Below, in pieces: positions 2,981-25,083 of a DNA stretch of 38,683 nt; the first letter of the stretch is position 1; every line of letters starts with the position of its first letter. The stretch spans positions 1 through 38,683 of IMG/VR virus record IMGVR_UViG_3300042923_001135. One strand, given 5' to 3'. The stretch comes from a virus. A model generated the notes under the pieces. That model searched no databases. It saw nothing but the letters and a program-made list of their open reading frames with translations, and was not told the origin of the DNA. Made by a program: the position numbers and the translations under genes.

Positions 2981-4027
2981 TTAAAAAGGCAAATCGTCCT
3001 CATCTTCAGCTGGAAAAAACTCATGTTCTAAAATATCTTTATTTGTGGCAACTTCCTGTTCAAATTCCATATTTTCTTTTACAACATTCCAAGGAGCTAG
3101 CCACTGATCCTGAAAAAAAGTGGTTTCAGCACCGCAAATTGAACAGTACCTAGCATTCCCGGGTGCGATTGTTCCGCACTCATTTTCGTTTATACACCTG
3201 TTAACTATATAAGTTCCGCATATGATACAATAGCCGCCTTCACCTAATTCACTATTTCCACACTTGGGGCACATAAGGGCTCGCCCTTCAGGATCTAATT
3301 CATAGCCATCATTGTAACGCATCTTACCATCCTCCCATAGTAATTTTTTATTTCCACATATAGGACAATATCTCGCTTCTTTGGAGTAGTATGTATAATT
3401 ACAAAGGTTACATGTTTTGGTATACATATAACCATAAAAGATATTCAATATTCTTGAAGTATATGTTTTTGATAAACTAGATTTTTTTTCGATAATTTGA
3501 TTAATACGAACTTTGGCAGCTTGAACTGAAAGGCCACAATGTTTTTGCAAAAAACTAATGGAAACAGATTTCATTGAAAGTAACACGGGAGAAGGAGAGA
3601 GAATTTCTCCTGCAAACAAATTAGCTTCATCTTCTAACGCTTTATATTCTTTCTCGCTTAATCCTCCCCTAGAAATTATAGTTTTATCAAACTCTTCTAA
3701 ATGCTTCAAGTAGATATGAGCAATTTCATGCATTAGCGTAAATAGTATTCGCCCTTTTGATTTTATCGAATCATTGTACGCTATGGAGTGAATATTCCCT
3801 TTATATGCAGTAAATGCATCTTCACTGCCATAAGCATCTATAATATCTTTAACCGATATATTATGTTTCTTTGCGTAATATCTGTATGTTCTTAAGGTAA
3901 TTTTATTTTTTGTTAATAAATCATATGGATCAATAGGTAATCTAGTGATCTTATTTTCTAACAAGAACAAATAAACCATTCTGTACACATATGAATACCT
4001 GCATTTATTAATTATCTTCGTTGCCAT
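2981..4027 (-). CDS. ImmA/IrrE-family metalloprotease with zinc ribbons and an SSB-like C-terminal tail
   Basis: The N-terminal half matches ImmA/IrrE (DUF955) proteases: the zinc motif HEIAH at about residues 100-104, with a downstream acidic helix EDEANLFAGEIL. In this family ImmA cleaves the neighbouring phage or ICE repressor when DNA damage or other signals occur. The C-terminal half holds three Cys pairs of zinc-ribbon type (CNLC/CPIC, CPKC/CIIC, and a third ending CSIC). The last residues are EFFPAEDEDDLPF, which copy the acidic tail of bacterial SSB proteins. The ATG at 4027 with GAGGAAGCGG upstream is preferred. A TTG at 4042 would add five residues. The gene overlaps the end of the repressor gene, so the two are co-transcribed and translationally coupled. 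I infer that it is the inducer protease of the repressor. Confidence 0.85.
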   Translation of the reverse strand: MATKIINKCRYSYVYRMVYLFLLENKITRLPIDPYDLLTKNKITLRTYRYYAKKHNISVKDIIDAYGSEDAFTAYKGNIHSIAYNDSIKSKGRILFTLMHEIAHIYLKHLEEFDKTIISRGGLSEKEYKALEDEANLFAGEILSPSPVLLSMKSVSISFLQKHCGLSVQAAKVRINQIIEKKSSLSKTYTSRILNIFYGYMYTKTCNLCNYTYYSKEARYCPICGNKKLLWEDGKMRYNDGYELDPEGRALMCPKCGNSELGEGGYCIICGTYIVNRCINENECGTIAPGNARYCSICGAETTFFQDQWLAPWNVVKENMEFEQEVATNKDILEHEFFPAEDEDDLPF

Positions 4028-4634
4028 TCTCCGCTTCCTCAATCATTGACTCTGCAAGTTTCTTTAATAAATCTTTTTTATCTTTTGATAAGTTTTTACT
4101 TGCTCTTGCTATAGCTCTAATGTCGGGATCATTAAAATCATCAGTTGTGTCGTACTTGGAAATTACTTGCGTGCCATACTGTGTAGGCTCTTCATATACA
4201 CTATCGGCATCATATCGACTAACAGTGTTATTTACAAAATCGTATTTGTACGGTTGGGTTCCCCTTGATGTTTCTATATCAATTACTATATTTTTAAGAG
4301 ATACTTTTCCATTGTTATTAATTGCAGGTTCAAGTATTTTTCTTAGTTTTTCGTCGTTCTTAGCTATTTTCACTAAATAGGACCACATTCTGTTTTCATC
4401 AAGCGCATCTTTTGAAGTTATCTCCTCAATATTGATCTCTTCATCAGAAATTAAATCATATATTTGTTTATCTAGCGCTTGAGCTATTTTACTTAATGTA
4501 TCAAGTGAGGGACTACTTTTATCATTTTCTATTTCACTAATTGTAGATTTTGATAAGCCAGTCTTTTCTCGTATTTGCATTATAGATAGACCTTTTTCTT
4601 TTCTAATTATTCTAATTCTTTCTCCAACATTCAT
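4008..4634 (-). CDS. XRE-family phage repressor (CI-like)
   Basis: The 208-residue protein has an N-terminal helix-turn-helix of XRE type (residues about 5-60, with the LSIMQIREKTGLSKSTISEIE stretch as its core) and a C-terminal part without a LexA-type Ser/Lys protease signature. A repressor that cannot cleave itself and is followed directly by ImmA fits the ImmR/ImmA arrangement known from ICEBs1 and related elements. It is transcribed divergently from the Cro-like gene. The intergenic region carries several copies of a GTTCG-type motif that overlap both promoters, so it likely represses the early operon and regulates itself. The ATG at 4634 is preceded by AGGAGTGAG. Confidence 0.9.
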   Translation of the reverse strand: MNVGERIRIIRKEKGLSIMQIREKTGLSKSTISEIENDKSSPSLDTLSKIAQALDKQIYDLISDEEINIEEITSKDALDENRMWSYLVKIAKNDEKLRKILEPAINNNGKVSLKNIVIDIETSRGTQPYKYDFVNNTVSRYDADSVYEEPTQYGTQVISKYDTTDDFNDPDIRAIARASKNLSKDKKDLLKKLAESMIEEAENGNEDN

Positions 4635-4845: not shown

Positions 4846-5061
4846 ATGGGAAACAAAATTAGAGAAATTATAGACGAAAAGGCCCTTAAAATCTCACGAG
4901 TTATTGAAAAGACTGGATTATCGAAATCTTATTTCTATGATGTGATGAATGGAGTAAGCGTACCCAGTTTAGCGAACGCAAGAAAGATATCAGAAGTTCT
5001 TAAAGCGCCTCTAGATCAACTATTTCCGGATGAAGTATCAAAAGAAAGCGAGGTAGAGTAG
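4846..5061 (+). CDS. Cro-like XRE-family regulator
   Basis: This small 71-residue protein is almost entirely one helix-turn-helix domain (VIEKTGLSKSYFYDVMNG as recognition region). It is the first gene of the rightward early operon and faces the repressor. By position and size it is a Cro-type regulator that would shut off repressor synthesis or moderate early transcription. The ATG at 4846 has a strong AGGAGGTGAT upstream (4833-4842). Its stop codon abuts the start of the antirepressor gene. Confidence 0.85.
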   Translation: MGNKIREIIDEKALKISRVIEKTGLSKSYFYDVMNGVSVPSLANARKISEVLKAPLDQLFPDEVSKESEVE

Positions 5062-5799
5062 ATGGATGAACTAGTAAAAATCAAGGTTAATCAGAATAAT
5101 GAGCAAGCAGTTTCAGCAAGAGAGTTACACGAAAAATTAGGTATAGCAAAAAGATTTACAGATTGGTTTACATATCAAGCTGAAAAATTAGGATTGCAAG
5201 AGGGCAGAGAGTTTATCACAATTTTGGGAGAAACCTCTGTGGTAGGTGGAAGACCTGCAACAGACTATATAGTACCTCTAGATATAGCAAAACACATTTG
5301 CATGGTATCAGGTGGAGAAAAAGCTCACACAATCAGAGAATATTTCATTCAAGTAGAACGTGCTTGGAATAGTCCGGAACAGGTTATGGCAAGAGCTCTG
5401 CAGATAGCAAACTGGAAGATTGAAACATATAAGGACAAACTTGCTCTGGCTGAAAATAAAATTGAAAAAAACAAGCCAAAGGTGCTCTTTGCAGAAGCTG
5501 TTGAGGTGTCTCACACATCAATCTTAATTGGGGACCTAGCAAAGATAATCAAGCAGAACGGATACGACATTGGTCAAAAGCGATTGTTTGAATGGTTAAG
5601 AAATAACGGTTACCTTATCAAAAGTGGTAACAGTAAGAACATGCCAACTCAAAAGTCAATGGATATGGAACTATTTGAGGTAAAGGAAAATACTATTAGC
5701 AATCCGGATGGTAGCGTCAGAGTAACCAAGACTACAAAGGTTACTGGTAAGGGACAAATATATTTTATTAACAAGTTTCTTTGTGAGATACCTGCATAG
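5062..5799 (+). CDS. Phage antirepressor (AntA/AntB N-terminal, KilAC C-terminal)
   Basis: The N-terminal half (about 1-110) matches the AntA/AntB antirepressor fold, with SARELHEKLGIAKRFTDWF near the start and GGEKAHTIREYFIQVERAW at its end. The C-terminal part (about 125-245) is a KilAC/ANT domain, with the typical WLRNNGYLIK near residue 180. Proteins of this build antagonise CI-type repressors and promote the lytic cycle. The start codon follows the Cro-like stop directly, without an intergenic base. Together with ImmA this gives the phage two possible routes to inactivate repression. A DNA-binding role independent of the repressor cannot be excluded. Confidence 0.9.
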   Translation: MDELVKIKVNQNNEQAVSARELHEKLGIAKRFTDWFTYQAEKLGLQEGREFITILGETSVVGGRPATDYIVPLDIAKHICMVSGGEKAHTIREYFIQVERAWNSPEQVMARALQIANWKIETYKDKLALAENKIEKNKPKVLFAEAVEVSHTSILIGDLAKIIKQNGYDIGQKRLFEWLRNNGYLIKSGNSKNMPTQKSMDMELFEVKENTISNPDGSVRVTKTTKVTGKGQIYFINKFLCEIPA

Positions 5800-11124: not shown

Positions 11125-12084
11125 ATGGAAACTGTAAACATAATAAACGACTTTGACCCAAATGAATACAACCTCTTAATACCGGTGCAGAGTCTACAAG
11201 AGATTAATCCAATTTTTAAGTACGTGCGCAATGAAGTATTAATCAGTACAAAGCTCCAGGATAAAGAAATATATGAAGAAAAATCCGCAGGAAAAGGAAT
11301 GTTTGCATTAACACATAAAGCGCTTATGAAGCTGTGTAATGCTGGCAATGGCCAGATAGTGGAAGTTAAAAAGATACAGCCAAGAGTATGCGAAAAATGC
11401 ATTGAAGTAGCAGGGCGTACTGGTATAGCTCCTAAATGTGTAGGATGCGAAGCCAGATATAACGTGGCAGCTCATGTAACAATGAAGTTCCCGGAGCTTT
11501 CCGGAGGCTGGAAGATAATACAGGCATCAAGAGAAGTAGATCTTTCTGCAGTTGCAAAGGCTGGTCAAGCTGATAAGCTAAAGGAATTTGCCGGTGAACA
11601 TGCCGAGAGTAAAGCAATTTCAAGAGTTATAAGAAAAGCATTTGCTATCAAGTCAGCATACTCTCTTGAGGAACTTAAAAAACCTTTTATCGCAGTATAT
11701 CCAGTACTTAATGCAAATGACCCTGACGCAAAGAGAGCTTTGATCGCCGGGTCGATGGCTGCAAGTAATCTTCTTTATGGTAGTGGGCTGACCCTTGGAG
11801 CGCCGGAGGAAGTGAAGCAGATAGAAGCTCCTGCTGATGCTACTAATGTTGTATCTGCTGATGATTATGACGTAGAACCATTGGACGTAAATGAGCATGT
11901 TGAGGCAGGAGAACACCCGGATACAGAGCCTGAAAAATTCTTCTGCGGTAATCCTGATTGTGGAGTAGAGATTAAGGCTAACGTGGCAGATTACAGCATT
12001 AAAAAATACAAAATGCCTCTATGTGTTAAGTGTCAGGGTATCGCTAAGAAAAGGCTTGAAGATAAGGAGGCTGCTAAAAAGTGA
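11125..12084 (+). CDS. Possible phage single-strand annealing-type protein with zinc ribbons
   Basis: The 319-residue protein stands directly before the SbcD-SbcC fusion gene and overlaps it by four bases. The central region (about 120-205) has a beta strand WKIIQASREVDL, then the helix AESKAISRVIRKAFAIK. This resembles the conserved ExKAxxRxxR stretch of Rad52/ERF/Sak annealing proteins. A CEKC...CVGC motif (about 93-112) and a C-terminal CGNPDC...CVKC ribbon add metal sites. Annealing proteins paired with an exonuclease are a classic phage recombination pair. Overall similarity to a known family is weak to the eye, so the functional call is tentative. Confidence 0.45.
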   Translation: METVNIINDFDPNEYNLLIPVQSLQEINPIFKYVRNEVLISTKLQDKEIYEEKSAGKGMFALTHKALMKLCNAGNGQIVEVKKIQPRVCEKCIEVAGRTGIAPKCVGCEARYNVAAHVTMKFPELSGGWKIIQASREVDLSAVAKAGQADKLKEFAGEHAESKAISRVIRKAFAIKSAYSLEELKKPFIAVYPVLNANDPDAKRALIAGSMAASNLLYGSGLTLGAPEEVKQIEAPADATNVVSADDYDVEPLDVNEHVEAGEHPDTEPEKFFCGNPDCGVEIKANVADYSIKKYKMPLCVKCQGIAKKRLEDKEAAKK

Positions 12085-15000
12085 AGATATTACATACAGC
12101 AGACTGGCATTTGGGGGCCTACGTTGGCCCTCAATGCGATAATCCACTAATACGCATGGCGAATACTTCAGTTTGCCTTGATGCTCTTGTTGAATGCGCT
12201 GTAAATGAACGTCCTGACATTATTATCATTCCAGGTGATATCTTCCACACAGCTAGAGTGTGGTCAGATAGGGCAATCGCAGAGGTAAAACTAGCCTCAG
12301 AATATCTGACTGTATTAGCAAATATAGCTCCAGTTGCAGTGTTGTATGGGACTCCTAACCATGATGGTGCAGCTCAATTTGATGCACTGGAAAAAATGGT
12401 CGGAGTAAACACTGTGCATCAAGTAATCTTCTACACTATACCGTGTTTACATTCAATCAGTACAGCTGCAGGACCGGTGTTGCTGGCAGGGTTGCCTGGT
12501 TTTGATAAAGGACATTTTAGAGCTCAATTTCCTGGGCTGTCTGCAGAAGAAGAAAATCAAATATTCAGCGAGCAACTGTCTCAAATTGTACAAGGTTTGA
12601 GTGCACAACTAACACCCGGTATTCCGTTCATATTGATGGCTCACCACACTGTAGTGGGCTGTGAAATGGATAATGGCACCCATATATTTCAAGCCAATGA
12701 AATTGTTTTGAGTTCATCAGCTTTAGATAGCAGCAATTTCGATATAGCTTGCCTTGGCCATATACATAGACCTCAGGAGGTAATCGCGTGTCAGAAGCCG
12801 GTGTTTTATGCAGGAAGTATAGATGCAACAACTTTTAATGATGAGGGTAATGATAAAGGCTTCTGGATACATGAGATTGATGAAAATTTACCGTTTGACA
12901 GATACTCCAATAGTAGATATATCAAAACGCCACACACAGAATTCATAACTCTTAATTGGCCACAAGATGCAGTGCAAGCATATAACGAAATCGGAATTTC
13001 TGGATTTGGGAATATTGAAAAAATCAGAAATAAAGTTGTTAGGGTCTTATATTCATGCGATCCTGCAACAGAAAAAGCGCTAGATAAAAAGAAACTTGAG
13101 CGCGACTTACTGTCTGCCGGTGCATATTATGTCAGTGAAATTCGTCCTGAGCGCATTGAGGCAAGTGTGAACCGTGAAGCAATGACAGAAAAGCTGACTG
13201 TAGTTGATTGTTTGAAAAGATATTTGGAAGAGAAGAAGCTACCTAACGCAGAGTTGATAATTCAGGAAGCAATGCCGCTTATTCAACAAGCTGAAGCATC
13301 CACTATAGCAGGAGGACAAAGCGGCTTATTTCTTCCCCTGGAGATATCAGTTAAGAATTATAGGAGCTATGCAGAAGAAACCTTTAGTTTTATGGATATA
13401 TACTTTGCCATGGTAAACGGTGTAAATGGTTGTGGTAAGTCAAGCTTATTCATGGATGCTCCAAGTGACTGTTTGTTTGAAGAACCAAGAGAAGGTGAAC
13501 TCACCGGATGGATCAGAACTGGACAGAAATCCGGAAGTATATCTTTTACTTTCATGCTAGGGAAAGACACCTGGAGAGTTACGAGGACCAGGACAAGGAG
13601 TGGTAAGGGAACTTTGGCTCTGGCTAAGTTAGTATCGATGGAGAACGAGTGGGAAGACCACAGCTGCTCTAAGATGGACGACACAAAGAAGAAGATTATA
13701 GAGTTGTTAGGTATGGACTGCAACACTTTCCAGAGCTGCGTACTGATAATGCAAAACAAATATGGATTATTCCTTGAAGCACAATCTGATGATCGTATGG
13801 CAATTCTGGCAAATCTATTAGGTCTCGGAATATACGACCAATTAGAGAACTTGTCTGATAAAAAGAGGCTTGAGGTCAGCAGAATACTTAATGCTAAAAA
13901 GGATGAAAGCTCCAAACTCATAGAAAGTGTTGAAGCAAAAGAAACTCTTCAAATTCAAAAAGAGAATGAACTATTTTCTTTAGAAATCTTAGAGGCTAAA
14001 CGGCTTACGCAAAAAGAAGCTGAAAAGAATATACAAGCCACTATTGATGAGGCAGCCAAAGTAGAGCAGGAAGTTAAACAACTTCTTTCTGAAGTAGCTC
14101 AATTGGAGTTATCAAAGAATCAAAAGCAATTGATACTAGATGAGTTAGACAAAAACTATGCAACTACTTGTACCTTCCTGAGCAACGAAAGCCATTATAT
14201 CAGTCAACACGAAATGTACTTAAATAAAGTTGATAAGCTTTCTGACTTATCCGGGAAGAAGCTGCTAAAAGATATAAAGGTTAAATCTCTCAATGAAAAG
14301 AGTCAAAGGCTTGCTAGTGTAAAAAGTGCCATTACTAACATTGAAAGTGAGATTGAACAAACAAATAAGCTTCTTAAGGATAGACCTAATATAGTAGAGT
14401 TCCTTGCTGCTAACCAAAATATTGACGATTTAATTGAGACACAACAGAAGGAAAAAGAAGAGTGCATTAGGATTAATGGGGATTTAAATGACCTTAATAA
14501 TAAGCTATCTTCTCACAATATTGAGGTTAAAGCAATTGAGTTAAGGCTAAGTCAAAAGCTTAATAATGCTGCTGAGAAAGCAAAGATGCTTGAGAATAGC
14601 AATTGTATTGATGCAGAACATGCTAAATGCAAGTTTTTAGCTGATGCTGTTGAGGCAAAAGAACACGTTCCAGGAATTGAGAAGGAAATAGCTCAAGAAA
14701 AAGAGAGATTGATTAATATCGCAGCAGACCTTCAGTCGCAAATCCAAGTTAAAAATCTTGAATTAGAAAGCAATTGCTATAAAGTTGAAACGCTGGGAAG
14801 TCTTCTGCAAAGACAAAGGGAATGTAATATAAAGAAGCAGCAACTAGCTGCTATGGATGCCCAGCAGTTAGCATTGTCCACTCTGGAGAAAAGACTTATA
14901 GACCTGAAGCAGCAACTCAGTGAACTACAGATAGAGGCGGAAATTGAGCAAGAAGAAGTTGAAACACTCACAGCCGAATGCGAAGGTTACGAAAAACTTA

Positions 15001-15890
15001 GTACTGAGCTAGAAGCATTAAAGCACGATGAGGACAAGTATCACAAGATTCCATCCGGCAAGCAATATTTAGCAAGTATAGAACCTCAGATTAATATGGT
15101 AAGGACTGAAATAAAGGAGCTTGCTGAGGGAATTGACCTTAAGAAATTAAAGGCTGCTGATATTCAAAAAAACAATAAAGACCATAGCTCCATAAAACTA
15201 AACCTTGAGGCTGTAAAACAAGAAATTGTTTTATTAGACCAACAAATAGCAATGGCCAACCGTACCATTGGCGGTATTGATGAAAAGCTTCAAAGAATTG
15301 CTGAGTGTGAAGTTCAGATGCAGGGGCTTAAAGCTGAGATAGATAATTTGGCATCACAAGTTAATACATATCAGATATTGCAAAATGCTTTCAGCCAGGA
15401 TGGTATTCCGCATCAGATTATAAGAGATATCATCCCTGAACTAGAAGCAAATGCTAATGAGATATTAAGCCAAATGACAGGCGGTTGGATGCGTGTGGAT
15501 TTCAAGACTGAAAAGGTTGTTAAAAGCAATAAGAGTAAAGAAATTGCTACCCTCGATATTATAACTACTGACGCATATTACGGAGAAATGCCATATCTAA
15601 GCAGATCCGGCGGACAGCGTACAAGAATAAATCTGGCAGTTGGATTCGCATTAGCAATCATTAAGGCCTCTAGGGTCGGACTGCAGCTTGGCATGTTGTT
15701 TGTAGATGAGCCTTCATGGCTTGATGAGAAGGGTACAGAAGAATATTGCATGGCATTGCAGACTATTCATAACAAATATCCTGAAATGCGGATTGTTGCC
15801 ATAAGTCATGATGCTTCAATGAAGGCTAGCTTTCCACAGCAGATATTAGTTGAAATGACAGACGAAGGCAGTAAAGTAAGAAGGTTGTAA
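12081..15890 (+). CDS. Single-chain SbcD-SbcC (Mre11-Rad50-like) fusion nuclease-ATPase
   Basis: The 1269-residue protein joins two enzymes that are normally separate. The N-terminal calcineurin-like phosphoesterase of SbcD/Mre11 type shows D8 and H10 in TADWHLG, GD near 53, NHD at 93-95 (within TPNHDG), HH at 188-189 and GHIH at 226-229. A cap region (to about 410) leads into an SbcC/Rad50 ATPase: Walker A GVNGCGKS at 447-454, a long coiled coil (about 600-1120) with C842 and C850 at the hook, the signature SRSGGQR near 1174, Walker B MLFVDEP near 1205 and the SHD loop near 1241. The complex processes DNA ends, hairpins and breaks. The GTG start overlaps the preceding gene by four bases. Confidence 0.93.
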   Translation: MKILHTADWHLGAYVGPQCDNPLIRMANTSVCLDALVECAVNERPDIIIIPGDIFHTARVWSDRAIAEVKLASEYLTVLANIAPVAVLYGTPNHDGAAQFDALEKMVGVNTVHQVIFYTIPCLHSISTAAGPVLLAGLPGFDKGHFRAQFPGLSAEEENQIFSEQLSQIVQGLSAQLTPGIPFILMAHHTVVGCEMDNGTHIFQANEIVLSSSALDSSNFDIACLGHIHRPQEVIACQKPVFYAGSIDATTFNDEGNDKGFWIHEIDENLPFDRYSNSRYIKTPHTEFITLNWPQDAVQAYNEIGISGFGNIEKIRNKVVRVLYSCDPATEKALDKKKLERDLLSAGAYYVSEIRPERIEASVNREAMTEKLTVVDCLKRYLEEKKLPNAELIIQEAMPLIQQAEASTIAGGQSGLFLPLEISVKNYRSYAEETFSFMDIYFAMVNGVNGCGKSSLFMDAPSDCLFEEPREGELTGWIRTGQKSGSISFTFMLGKDTWRVTRTRTRSGKGTLALAKLVSMENEWEDHSCSKMDDTKKKIIELLGMDCNTFQSCVLIMQNKYGLFLEAQSDDRMAILANLLGLGIYDQLENLSDKKRLEVSRILNAKKDESSKLIESVEAKETLQIQKENELFSLEILEAKRLTQKEAEKNIQATIDEAAKVEQEVKQLLSEVAQLELSKNQKQLILDELDKNYATTCTFLSNESHYISQHEMYLNKVDKLSDLSGKKLLKDIKVKSLNEKSQRLASVKSAITNIESEIEQTNKLLKDRPNIVEFLAANQNIDDLIETQQKEKEECIRINGDLNDLNNKLSSHNIEVKAIELRLSQKLNNAAEKAKMLENSNCIDAEHAKCKFLADAVEAKEHVPGIEKEIAQEKERLINIAADLQSQIQVKNLELESNCYKVETLGSLLQRQRECNIKKQQLAAMDAQQLALSTLEKRLIDLKQQLSELQIEAEIEQEEVETLTAECEGYEKLSTELEALKHDEDKYHKIPSGKQYLASIEPQINMVRTEIKELAEGIDLKKLKAADIQKNNKDHSSIKLNLEAVKQEIVLLDQQIAMANRTIGGIDEKLQRIAECEVQMQGLKAEIDNLASQVNTYQILQNAFSQDGIPHQIIRDIIPELEANANEILSQMTGGWMRVDFKTEKVVKSNKSKEIATLDIITTDAYYGEMPYLSRSGGQRTRINLAVGFALAIIKASRVGLQLGMLFVDEPSWLDEKGTEEYCMALQTIHNKYPEMRIVAISHDASMKASFPQQILVEMTDEGSKVRRL

Positions 15891-17517: not shown

Positions 17518-17925
17518 ATGAATAAAGTTGCATTAGTAGGACGATTAACGAAGGATCCTGATGTTAGATATACAGCAAACAGTCAAACTGCAGTAGCTAA
17601 ATTTACTCTGGCTGTTAATAGGATTTACAAACAGGAAGGACAGCCAGAAGCTGATTTTATACCGATAGTTGTCTGGGGAAAACAAGCAGAGAATGCAGGT
17701 AAATATATCGGCAAAGGAAGACTTGTTGCAGTATCAGGAAGAATCCAAACAAGAAGCTGGGATGACCAGGAAGGAACGCGACATTATGCAACTGAGGTTG
17801 TAGCTGATGAAGTCCAGTACCTTGATAAGGGCAAGGACAGTGGGCAGTCTACCAGCAATAATAGCAGTAGTTACAATAGCGAAGACTTCTATCCTGCAGA
17901 GGGCGAAGATGATCTTCCATTCTAG
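17518..17925 (+). CDS. ssb: Single-stranded DNA-binding protein
   Basis: The 135-residue protein has a complete OB-fold of bacterial SSB (about 1-105), starting MNKVALVGRLTKDPDVRYT and including FIPIVVWGKQAENA. A flexible Ser/Asn-rich linker and the acidic tail EGEDDLPF follow. SSB coats single-stranded DNA during replication and recombination, and its tail docks partner enzymes. The tail closely matches the C-terminus of the ImmA-like protein at the left end of this prophage. The gene is embedded in the recombination module. Confidence 0.97.
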   Translation: MNKVALVGRLTKDPDVRYTANSQTAVAKFTLAVNRIYKQEGQPEADFIPIVVWGKQAENAGKYIGKGRLVAVSGRIQTRSWDDQEGTRHYATEVVADEVQYLDKGKDSGQSTSNNSSSYNSEDFYPAEGEDDLPF

Positions 17926-22704: not shown

Positions 22705-25083
22705 ATGCAACAATTTATAAACATACCAAATGAATTACGGCTATTAAACAGATGGGTTTGCTGGAAAATGGAAGAGCGCAACGGCAAGCCCACAAAGGTT
22801 CCTAAGAATCCTAAAGACGGCAAAAATGCTATGTCAAATGAATCTAATACATGGGGAAGCTTCAAGCAAGCGGTTGATAGATGCAAGAAAGATAAAACAT
22901 TGCTTGGCATAGGCTTTCAGTTTGAGGGTTCCGGTTATGCCGGGTTTGACATTGACGGCTGCCGTGATAAGGAGACTGGGGAGCTTACGCCTGAAGCGCA
23001 GGATATTATTAATACACTAGATAGTTATACCGAAGTAAGCGCCAGCGGCAAGGGAGTTCATGTAATCTGCAAAGGAACCGTTCCTGATGGAAGGTCCCGT
23101 AATGGTAAATTTGAGTTGTACTATAAAGGCAGATATTTTGTTATGTCTGGAGATGTAATTGAGGGAAGAGACACGATATATGAACGTACTGAGCAGCTAG
23201 CCATCGTACACCAAAAGTATATAAATGTGCAGAAATCTTCTAAGAGTGTATCAAAATCTAATGAAAACGTACACAAGGGAAATAACTCTGTATTTGGGAT
23301 GTCGGATGATGAGCTTATTAAAAAGGCTATGTCATCTAAAAACGGTAACAGGTTTGAGAGCCTTTATAGAGGTGACTGGAACGGATTGTATGCAAGCCCC
23401 AGTGAGGCAGACATGGCACTTTGCAATATGCTTGCATTTTGGACAGGCAGAGATGCTGATGCAATGGATCGTATCTTCAGGATGTCAGCTTTGTTCCGTG
23501 ACAAATGGGATGAGCGCCGTCCTGGGGGTACGTATGGCAGCATGACAATTCAGGAAGCAATCGATAAGTGTGATGAAGTGTATGAGCCGAAAAAAGAAAG
23601 GCAGCGGAAGGCGCCTGAGACGGTGATGAGCTTCGAGGAGCAACTTCCTCCAGATTATGATGATGGCTTTGACCAGCTGCTACAGGAAAAGGAAAAGGAA
23701 AAGAAAAAGTCATTTACCCTGGACGATATAGGGAATGCTGAAAGGTTGATTGCCAAGTTTGGTGAGAATTTGAGATATTGCTTCCCTTTTAAGTCATGGC
23801 TGGTGTGGGACAAGAATCGCTGGAGGATTGATAACAAGGGTGAAATATATGAGATGTCCAGGCAGACGGCTAGAGGGATAATCCAGGAAGCGTTTAGTGC
23901 TCCGGACGAAAAGAGGGATGCAATTCTCCGGCATGCGCGTAAGAGCTGCGATGATGCAAAGCTCAATGCAATGATTAAACAGGCCCGTAGTTTACCGGGA
24001 GTACCGGTGGATCCTCTGGAGCTCGATAAGAGTAACTGGCTGCTTGCTGCAGAGAATGGGACTATTGATTTAAAGACGGGAAAGCTCCGTGAGCATGACC
24101 GCAATGATATGGTCACCAAAATAACGCCTATCACATATGACCCCAAAGGGAAAGCACCTACATGGGAAGCTTTTCTTGATAAGATATTCTGCAGTGATAA
24201 GGAGCTGATCAGCTTCATCCAGAGAGCTGTCGGCTATAGTCTGACAGGATCTACTGCAGAACAGTGTTTTTTTATGTGTCATGGCACCGGCAGTAATGGT
24301 AAGAGTACACTGTTTAATGTACTCAGTGACATCCTGGGGGATTATTCTAAGACTGCAGATATGGAGCTCTTTACAGAGCGCAGAAATAATCAGAACTCCA
24401 GTAATGAGGTTGCTATGCTGCAGGGTTCCAGACTGGTTACTACGGTGGAGACAAATGACGGTGTTAAGCTGAATGAAGCGCTGGTAAAGAAGCTCACCGG
24501 GAGTGATTTAATTGTGGCCAAAAGATTATATGCTGATGCCTTTGAGTATCGGCCGGTATTTAAAATTTGGATGGCCGTAAATCATTTGCCCATCATCAAG
24601 GGTACAGATATAGGTATATGGCGCAGAATTAGAATTGTGCCTTTTAATGCATACATATCAGATACCGAGAAGGACGTGAAGCTTCCGGAGAAGCTAAAGA
24701 TTGAGTACCCTGCAATACTACGCTGGGCTGTAGAAGGCTGCATGCAATGGCAAAAGCAAGGGCTGAATCCGCCGGCAAAAGTTTTAGCTGCTACAGAAGA
24801 GTATAAGCAGGATCAGGATATGTTTGGTGAGTTCATATCTGCGTGCTGTGTTGTAGGTAGAAGTATAAGATGCTCGGGTAAGCATCTCTACGCGGAATAT
24901 GAGCGGTGGTGTGAAGAGAATAATTATAAAACGCTTACTGCAAAGAGCTTTGTTCGTGCAATGCGAGAAAAGGGTTTTATGCAGGAGGTCACCAGAAGTA
25001 GAAGGTATGACTGGGTCGGTATTGGAGTAGCTACTCCGGATGATGTTGAAGATGTATTCCAACAAACCTACTGGCAAAAATGA
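22705..25083 (+). CDS. Phage/plasmid primase-helicase, P4 type
   Basis: The 792-residue protein unites a primase-polymerase-like front (about 1-160) and an SF3 helicase at the end. The front shows the acidic pair in GFDIDGC (D82, D84) and SGKGVHVICKG. A region of about 210-290 is the primase C-terminal helper. The helicase part has a D5_N-like domain (about 400-510), Walker A CHGTGSNGKS near 527-536, and the downstream VETNDG and WMAVNH motifs of D5/P4 helicases. It opens the origin and primes DNA synthesis. A repeat-rich non-coding region directly downstream is the best origin candidate in the window. Confidence 0.95.
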   Translation: MQQFINIPNELRLLNRWVCWKMEERNGKPTKVPKNPKDGKNAMSNESNTWGSFKQAVDRCKKDKTLLGIGFQFEGSGYAGFDIDGCRDKETGELTPEAQDIINTLDSYTEVSASGKGVHVICKGTVPDGRSRNGKFELYYKGRYFVMSGDVIEGRDTIYERTEQLAIVHQKYINVQKSSKSVSKSNENVHKGNNSVFGMSDDELIKKAMSSKNGNRFESLYRGDWNGLYASPSEADMALCNMLAFWTGRDADAMDRIFRMSALFRDKWDERRPGGTYGSMTIQEAIDKCDEVYEPKKERQRKAPETVMSFEEQLPPDYDDGFDQLLQEKEKEKKKSFTLDDIGNAERLIAKFGENLRYCFPFKSWLVWDKNRWRIDNKGEIYEMSRQTARGIIQEAFSAPDEKRDAILRHARKSCDDAKLNAMIKQARSLPGVPVDPLELDKSNWLLAAENGTIDLKTGKLREHDRNDMVTKITPITYDPKGKAPTWEAFLDKIFCSDKELISFIQRAVGYSLTGSTAEQCFFMCHGTGSNGKSTLFNVLSDILGDYSKTADMELFTERRNNQNSSNEVAMLQGSRLVTTVETNDGVKLNEALVKKLTGSDLIVAKRLYADAFEYRPVFKIWMAVNHLPIIKGTDIGIWRRIRIVPFNAYISDTEKDVKLPEKLKIEYPAILRWAVEGCMQWQKQGLNPPAKVLAATEEYKQDQDMFGEFISACCVVGRSIRCSGKHLYAEYERWCEENNYKTLTAKSFVRAMREKGFMQEVTRSRRYDWVGIGVATPDDVEDVFQQTYWQK

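Follow-up and report, generated by a model that had tools for sequence, protein, structure and literature searches.

The locus described here raises the question of why a protease that belongs to a lysogeny switch should end in the acidic tip of a single-stranded DNA-binding protein (SSB). The window analysed, 38,683 bases long, corresponds to an entire IMG/VR virus record, and the protein in question belongs, as the ImmA-type protease, to a lysogeny switch resembling ImmR/ImmA. Pfam detected in it Peptidase_M78 (9e-11) and, at residues 253–299, DZR (2.5e-6); against PF06114 it scores 42 bits, above the cut-off of 22, and its best PHROG match is phrog_19315 (6e-77), a family of unknown function. 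Alignments of relatives revealed that H100, E101, H104 and E134 are invariant, i.e., the HEXXH motif and a conserved glutamate downstream of it. The initial annotation had recognised three zinc ribbons before the tail, and the cysteine spacing indeed yields three ribbon-like modules (C206/209/221/224, C253/256/267/270 and C278/284/295/298) whose Cys pairs are invariant or nearly so in the aligned relatives. The AlphaFold model of the protein (mean pLDDT 90.7, 54-row alignment) shows the M78 body, the ribbons, and a helix at residues 313–336 that starts at a conserved Trp and is followed by an end predicted to be disordered. The best fold match of this model in the PDB is PprI/IrrE, and the best PDB match by sequence is CapP (7t5t, E 0.0015). 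Pfam found no match to the SSB family (PF00436), with its OB fold, in the protease, which may function in the manner of an SSB tail but is not itself an SSB.

The genes surrounding the protease are those of an immunity region (Table 1). The repressor gene, whose product is the presumed substrate, is located directly upstream of the protease gene and overlaps it by 20 bases; likewise, the upstream neighbour encodes an HTH_3 protein in 58 of the 60 cases sampled across the zinc-ribbon M78 family. The same gene order, in which an HTH repressor immediately precedes the M78 protease, is present in ImmR/ImmA of ICEBs1 and in phage repressor/M78 pairs such as that of Listeria MpaR. In those pairs of the ICEBs1 ImmR/ImmA type that have been studied, the M78 protease cleaves the adjacent repressor. 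In the module of the window the cro and antirepressor genes are divergent, and, unlike the ImmA of the ICEBs1-type pairs, the protease carries three zinc-ribbon-like modules and an SSB-type tail after the protease domain. Other genes of the record include one for a protein of 1,269 residues (12081–15890, + strand) with an N-terminal calcineurin-like phosphoesterase and, more distally, a weak match of the SMC/RecF type, resembling a fusion of SbcD-like and SbcC-like parts, and one for a primase-helicase of 792 residues (22705–25083, +), similar to D5_N and the NrS-1 polymerase. Beside the integrase end lies a gene for a protein of 481 residues with Big_2 and DUF6359 domains (101–1546, +), which may be lysogenic cargo or host sequence.

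Table 1. Features of the window relevant to the protease and its tail.
Feature	Position	Strand	Basis
Tyrosine integrase, downstream of the protease	1809–2900	−	Pfam Phage_integrase 3e-22
M78 induction protease of the ImmA/IrrE type, 348 aa, bearing zinc ribbons and an SSB-type tail at its C-terminus	2981–4027	−	Translation
SSB-type tail EFFPAEDEDDLPF, protease residues 336–348	2984–3022	−	Translation; codon comparison
Three zinc-ribbon-like modules, residues 206–298	3134–3412	−	Cys spacing; Pfam DZR
Catalytic HEIAH, residues 100–104	3716–3730	−	Alignment of relatives
HTH_3 repressor (ImmR/CI-like), 208 aa, presumed substrate	4008–4634	−	Pfam HTH_3 1e-14
Cro-like HTH protein, divergent	4846–5061	+	Pfam
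Antirepressor Ant (AntA and KilAC), divergent	5062–5799	+	Pfam ANT 2e-35, AntA 2e-21
Phage SSB, 135 aa, ending DFYPAEGEDDLPF	17518–17925	+	PF00436 2e-36
C-terminal tail of the SSB, used for comparison with that of the protease	17884–17922	+	Codon comparison

The protease terminates in FFPAEDEDDLPF and the SSB of the same phage in FYPAEGEDDLPF. A codon comparison of the last 13 residues (EFFPAEDEDDLPF and DFYPAEGEDDLPF) reproduced exactly what had been noticed in the initial annotation, namely that 10 of the 13 are identical and that nine of these ten are encoded by different codons, only one codon being the same. When the record was searched with a DNA pattern for D-D-hydrophobic-P-F-stop, only two matches were obtained, the protease and the SSB. 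The end of the protease, EDDLPF followed by the stop codon, thus brings together acidic residues, a hydrophobic residue, Pro, Phe and a free carboxylate, the composition of the acidic tip of SSB (SSB-Ct), which in E. coli reads MDFDDDIPF. In the AlphaFold model there is no secondary structure past residue 336 and the tail has a pLDDT of 57–64; the tail is therefore predicted to be disordered and exposed, as an SSB-Ct would be.

To learn how widespread this ending is, a survey was seeded on protease and zinc-ribbon patterns and not on the tail. Relatives were recovered with an alignment as query; as a single-sequence query the window protein retrieved no relative among viral contigs and three weak matches in genomes. 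The resulting set comprises 84 zinc-ribbon M78 proteins with less than 90% identity, and 34 M78 proteins lacking ribbons and 1,245 other ORFs of the same loci served as controls. The initial annotation had proposed searching ImmA/IrrE proteins for an SSB-type terminus, and the terminal PF was found in 49 of the 84 zinc-ribbon proteins (46 with the full acidic-hydrophobic-P-F pattern) versus 0 of the 34 without ribbons and 5 of the 1,245 neighbouring ORFs, among which only one, the SSB of the window itself, has the full pattern. When the family is reduced to clusters below 40% identity, 16 of 29 end in PF. Tailed proteins are present in a Lysinibacillus phage (SDFMU_Pfc, DEDPDFPF), in the Latilactobacillus phage TMW 1.706 P1 (TEALPF), and in a plasmid record of Bacillus glycinifermentans that carries genes of phage type (LSDELPF); in two Streptococcus Javan phages the protease is devoid of the tail. 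An acidic C-terminus could resemble that of SSB by accident or as a neutral remnant, as the many tail-less members of the zinc-ribbon family might suggest; nevertheless, chance is contradicted by these counts and by the divergence of the linker while the tail stays, and we rejected it as highly improbable. Among tailed pairs with 45–90% identity in the core, the mean identity is 26% in the linker and 68% in the last four residues; given that PF itself was a selection criterion in this comparison, the acidic positions are the independent part of the evidence that the tail is retained.

To account for the scattered distribution of the tail, the tree requires about 20 changes of state, which implies repeated loss or gain; together with the roughly 40% of the zinc-ribbon family that is tail-less, this indicates that it is not essential to the protease. 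It had been anticipated that absence of the tail from close homologues would speak against its significance. The nearest relative (L096) bears a VPF tail and so preserves the claim in this respect, yet L037, placed beside it, has no tail, as is the case for some 40% of the family. Four tail-less proteins (L002, L127, L140 and L150) end in DEMTF, EGQEIF, EEEIQF and MEELLF, near misses that look as if the tip were decaying. Other unusual architectures were also observed. In a clostridial genome (G314; L098:1498–3351, − strand), a frame of 617 residues contains three HTH_3 domains, the M78 domain, ribbons and a terminal DDDLPF, an apparent fusion of repressor and protease. In three loci (L056, L070 and L099) the protease stops early and a second ORF in another frame, similar to the family, ends in NNPPF, NDIPF and NDLPF, respectively; these split frames could be sequencing errors, programmed frameshifting or frameshifted pseudogenes. 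In a Cytobacillus spongiae plasmid (L249:2480–3910), a zinc-ribbon M78 protease with a degenerate terminus, MNSPF, precedes a second protein, which consists of ribbons and has neither the protease domain nor the tail.

The tails of the family were also compared with a profile of 44 SSBs ending in PF. Acidic residues occupy positions −4, −5 and −6 in 78, 71 and 47% of the protease tails versus 93, 80 and 68% of the SSBs, and at −7 both groups have Ser more often than any other residue; at −3 the proteases have L, I, V, F, P or M, with Leu, Ile and Val as in SSBs. The protease tails therefore have in common with the acidic tip of PF00436 proteins the preferences over the last seven residues and the Pro-Phe terminus, but, unlike it, they are placed on a protein without an OB fold. 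Upstream of the tip, the 13 preceding residues resemble SSB tails with p<0.05 in 14 of 57 protease tails (about 3 expected) and with p<0.01 in 6 of 57, the null being shuffled versions of each tail itself. Some family proteases carry an unusual, lineage-specific SSB tail with an extra C-terminal Asn, IPDGIDEELPFN. A DNA pattern for the terminus DE-x-LPFN matched in only 2 of 398 clostridial genomes, each time in an SSB ending in GDGFMNIPDGIDEELPFN, and three proteases have closely similar endings with the extra Asn: L026 (SGFMDIPDSIDEGLPFN; tail peptide IPDSIDEGLPFN), L144 (AFMTIPDDIDEELPFN) and L195 (YEIPDGIDEELPFN), the last of which branches far away from L026 and L144. Likewise, the tails of L011 and L042 match SSB tails of the DPF...P type that end in DDLPF. 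Recent copying from an ssb gene was considered as the origin of the tails. The three Asn-ending proteases and their matching SSBs have 3–7 codons in common among 13–14 identical residues, and the two SSBs have 6 of 16 in common with each other; the two degrees of codon sharing being similar, convergence and an old capture from an ssb gene are inseparable. From these comparisons, the C-terminus of the protease has most likely been selected to mimic the acidic tip of SSB.

This copying bears on the idea that the acidic tail inhibits the protease itself, folding onto its own ribbons or onto a site for ssDNA until ssDNA displaces it, much as the SSB-Ct can compete with DNA for the OB fold of SSB. 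According to PMC8509808, the SSB-Ct makes contact with the OB fold and regulates the binding of ssDNA; the position of the tail after a helix and its predicted disorder also speak for this idea. Nevertheless, self-inhibition leaves the copying of lineage-specific SSB tails such as IPDGIDEELPFN unexplained, and in the model the placement of the tail relative to the body is of low confidence (pLDDT 57–64); we consider it unlikely.

Pairs of a protease and an SSB from the same genome or the same phage record, 12 in all, were also compared. At position −3 the two proteins carry identical residues in 10 of them (4.7 on average in permutations, p=0.0003), in a test that is small and for which this position was picked after inspection of the data; over the last 7–11 residues of the same pairs the similarity is not significant (p 0.16–0.24). 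An SSB match was found in only 4 of 50 related phage records, which indicates that the copied model is usually the SSB of the host and not that of the phage. The phage's own SSB was rejected as the general model of the mimicry, the remaining 46 records, some of which may be fragments, having no SSB match. Hence, the proposal of the initial annotation that an induction protease has been selected to bear an SSB-type tail is strongly supported by the family survey, but its emphasis on the SSB of the phage was probably misplaced, given also that several tails match bacterial SSB lineages. Its further suggestions, docking to the partners of SSB and a link between cleavage and replication stress, are plausible.

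The residue at −3 is also relevant to the main rival explanation, according to which the C-terminal LPF is a degron read by ClpXP or an adaptor, so that levels of the M78 protease stay low until the host protease becomes saturated under stress. In some strains of S. mutans the last three residues of SsbA, LPF, suffice for degradation by ClpXP; nevertheless, E. coli, S. gordonii, S. sanguinis and three of six S. mutans strains do not recognise the signal (PMC5143411). A degron would have no need for the residue at −3 to follow the SSB of the same record, and in the family this position varies (I, V, F, P, M, L) while the acidic residues at −4 and −5 are retained. On account of this variation and retention the degron appears disfavoured, although it is slightly less improbable than self-inhibition.

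Returning to mimicry of the SSB-Ct, its possible consequences can be considered in the light of what is known of this tip and of M78 proteins. The SSB-Ct is the recruiting site for more than 17 partners; in the case of RecO, a hydrophobic pocket accommodates the terminal Pro-Phe of the tip (PMC7913777). Fusion of an SSB C-terminal domain to PriB raised ssDNA binding and the stimulation of PriA (PMC8509808). The tail of the protease would dock into the SSB-Ct pocket of genome-maintenance proteins of the host (or the phage), e.g., RecO, PriA or RecQ, and, as such partners gather on SSB-coated ssDNA, the protease would be concentrated at stalled forks and damage. SSB-coated ssDNA already bears many SSB tails, so that the protease would have to compete with them or act at a high local concentration, which speaks against this reading. 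There, ssDNA, perhaps held by the zinc ribbons, would switch on the M78 domain, and the activated protease would cleave the adjacent repressor, leading to prophage induction. Stimulation of this protease by ssDNA would be in line with its fold and family, since PprI and CapP, the M78 proteins whose triggers are known, are activated by ssDNA (PMC10904395). In pneumococcal prophages, ImmA responds to the state of recombination, and the signal was proposed to be ssDNA alone or a different ssDNA-associated protein (PMC12637031). We assign a probability of roughly 0.6 to the reading in which the tail, as a mimic of the SSB-Ct, docks the protease at ssDNA, and ssDNA triggers cleavage of the repressor; docking, activation and cleavage are the inferred steps. 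A tail that binds the same pockets as the SSB-Ct could instead act as a decoy, occupying host proteins such as RecO and altering RecA loading or repair, with no guidance of the protease. There is precedent for mobile elements that modulate RecA filaments, i.e., RamT/RamA of ICEBs1 (PMC11841131); nevertheless, the switch protease of an immunity operon is probably not abundant enough to compete with SSB, and a decoy seems as improbable as self-inhibition.

The mechanism suggested here can be compared with two other M78 systems. The PprI/IrrE-DdrO system of Deinococcus has the M78 fold in common with the window protease, and the ssDNA trigger would be alike; besides an HTH, PprI possesses a GAF-like domain with direct ssDNA-binding activity (PMC10904395), it has no zinc ribbons, and the passages of that source considered here describe no SSB-like tail. 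CapH/CapP of CBASS also consists of an M78 protease and a repressor, and is activated by ssDNA as cited in PMC10904395; unlike the lysogeny switch of the window, it governs a defence operon. Taken singly, the protease, its operon and the SSB tip are all known. Literature searches, covering open-access papers, found no earlier report of SSB-like tails on ImmA proteins, nor of the family-wide combination and its lineage-specific copying.

For the activation of ImmA-type proteases in phages, the SSB-type tail points to concrete candidates, the proteins that bind the SSB-Ct, and an SSB-like terminus found outside the SSB family offers a general cue for annotation. As a tentative generalisation, to which we give somewhat less than even odds, the zinc-ribbon ImmA proteases of Bacillota prophages may be sensors of replication stress that read the SSB interactome of the host by means of a short, host-matched peptide, in which case the route to induction need not pass through the RecA-driven self-cleavage of a repressor. 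Over half of the zinc-ribbon relatives keep the ending and some copy the version of one bacterial lineage, which suggests that these prophages sense replication trouble by posing as SSB.
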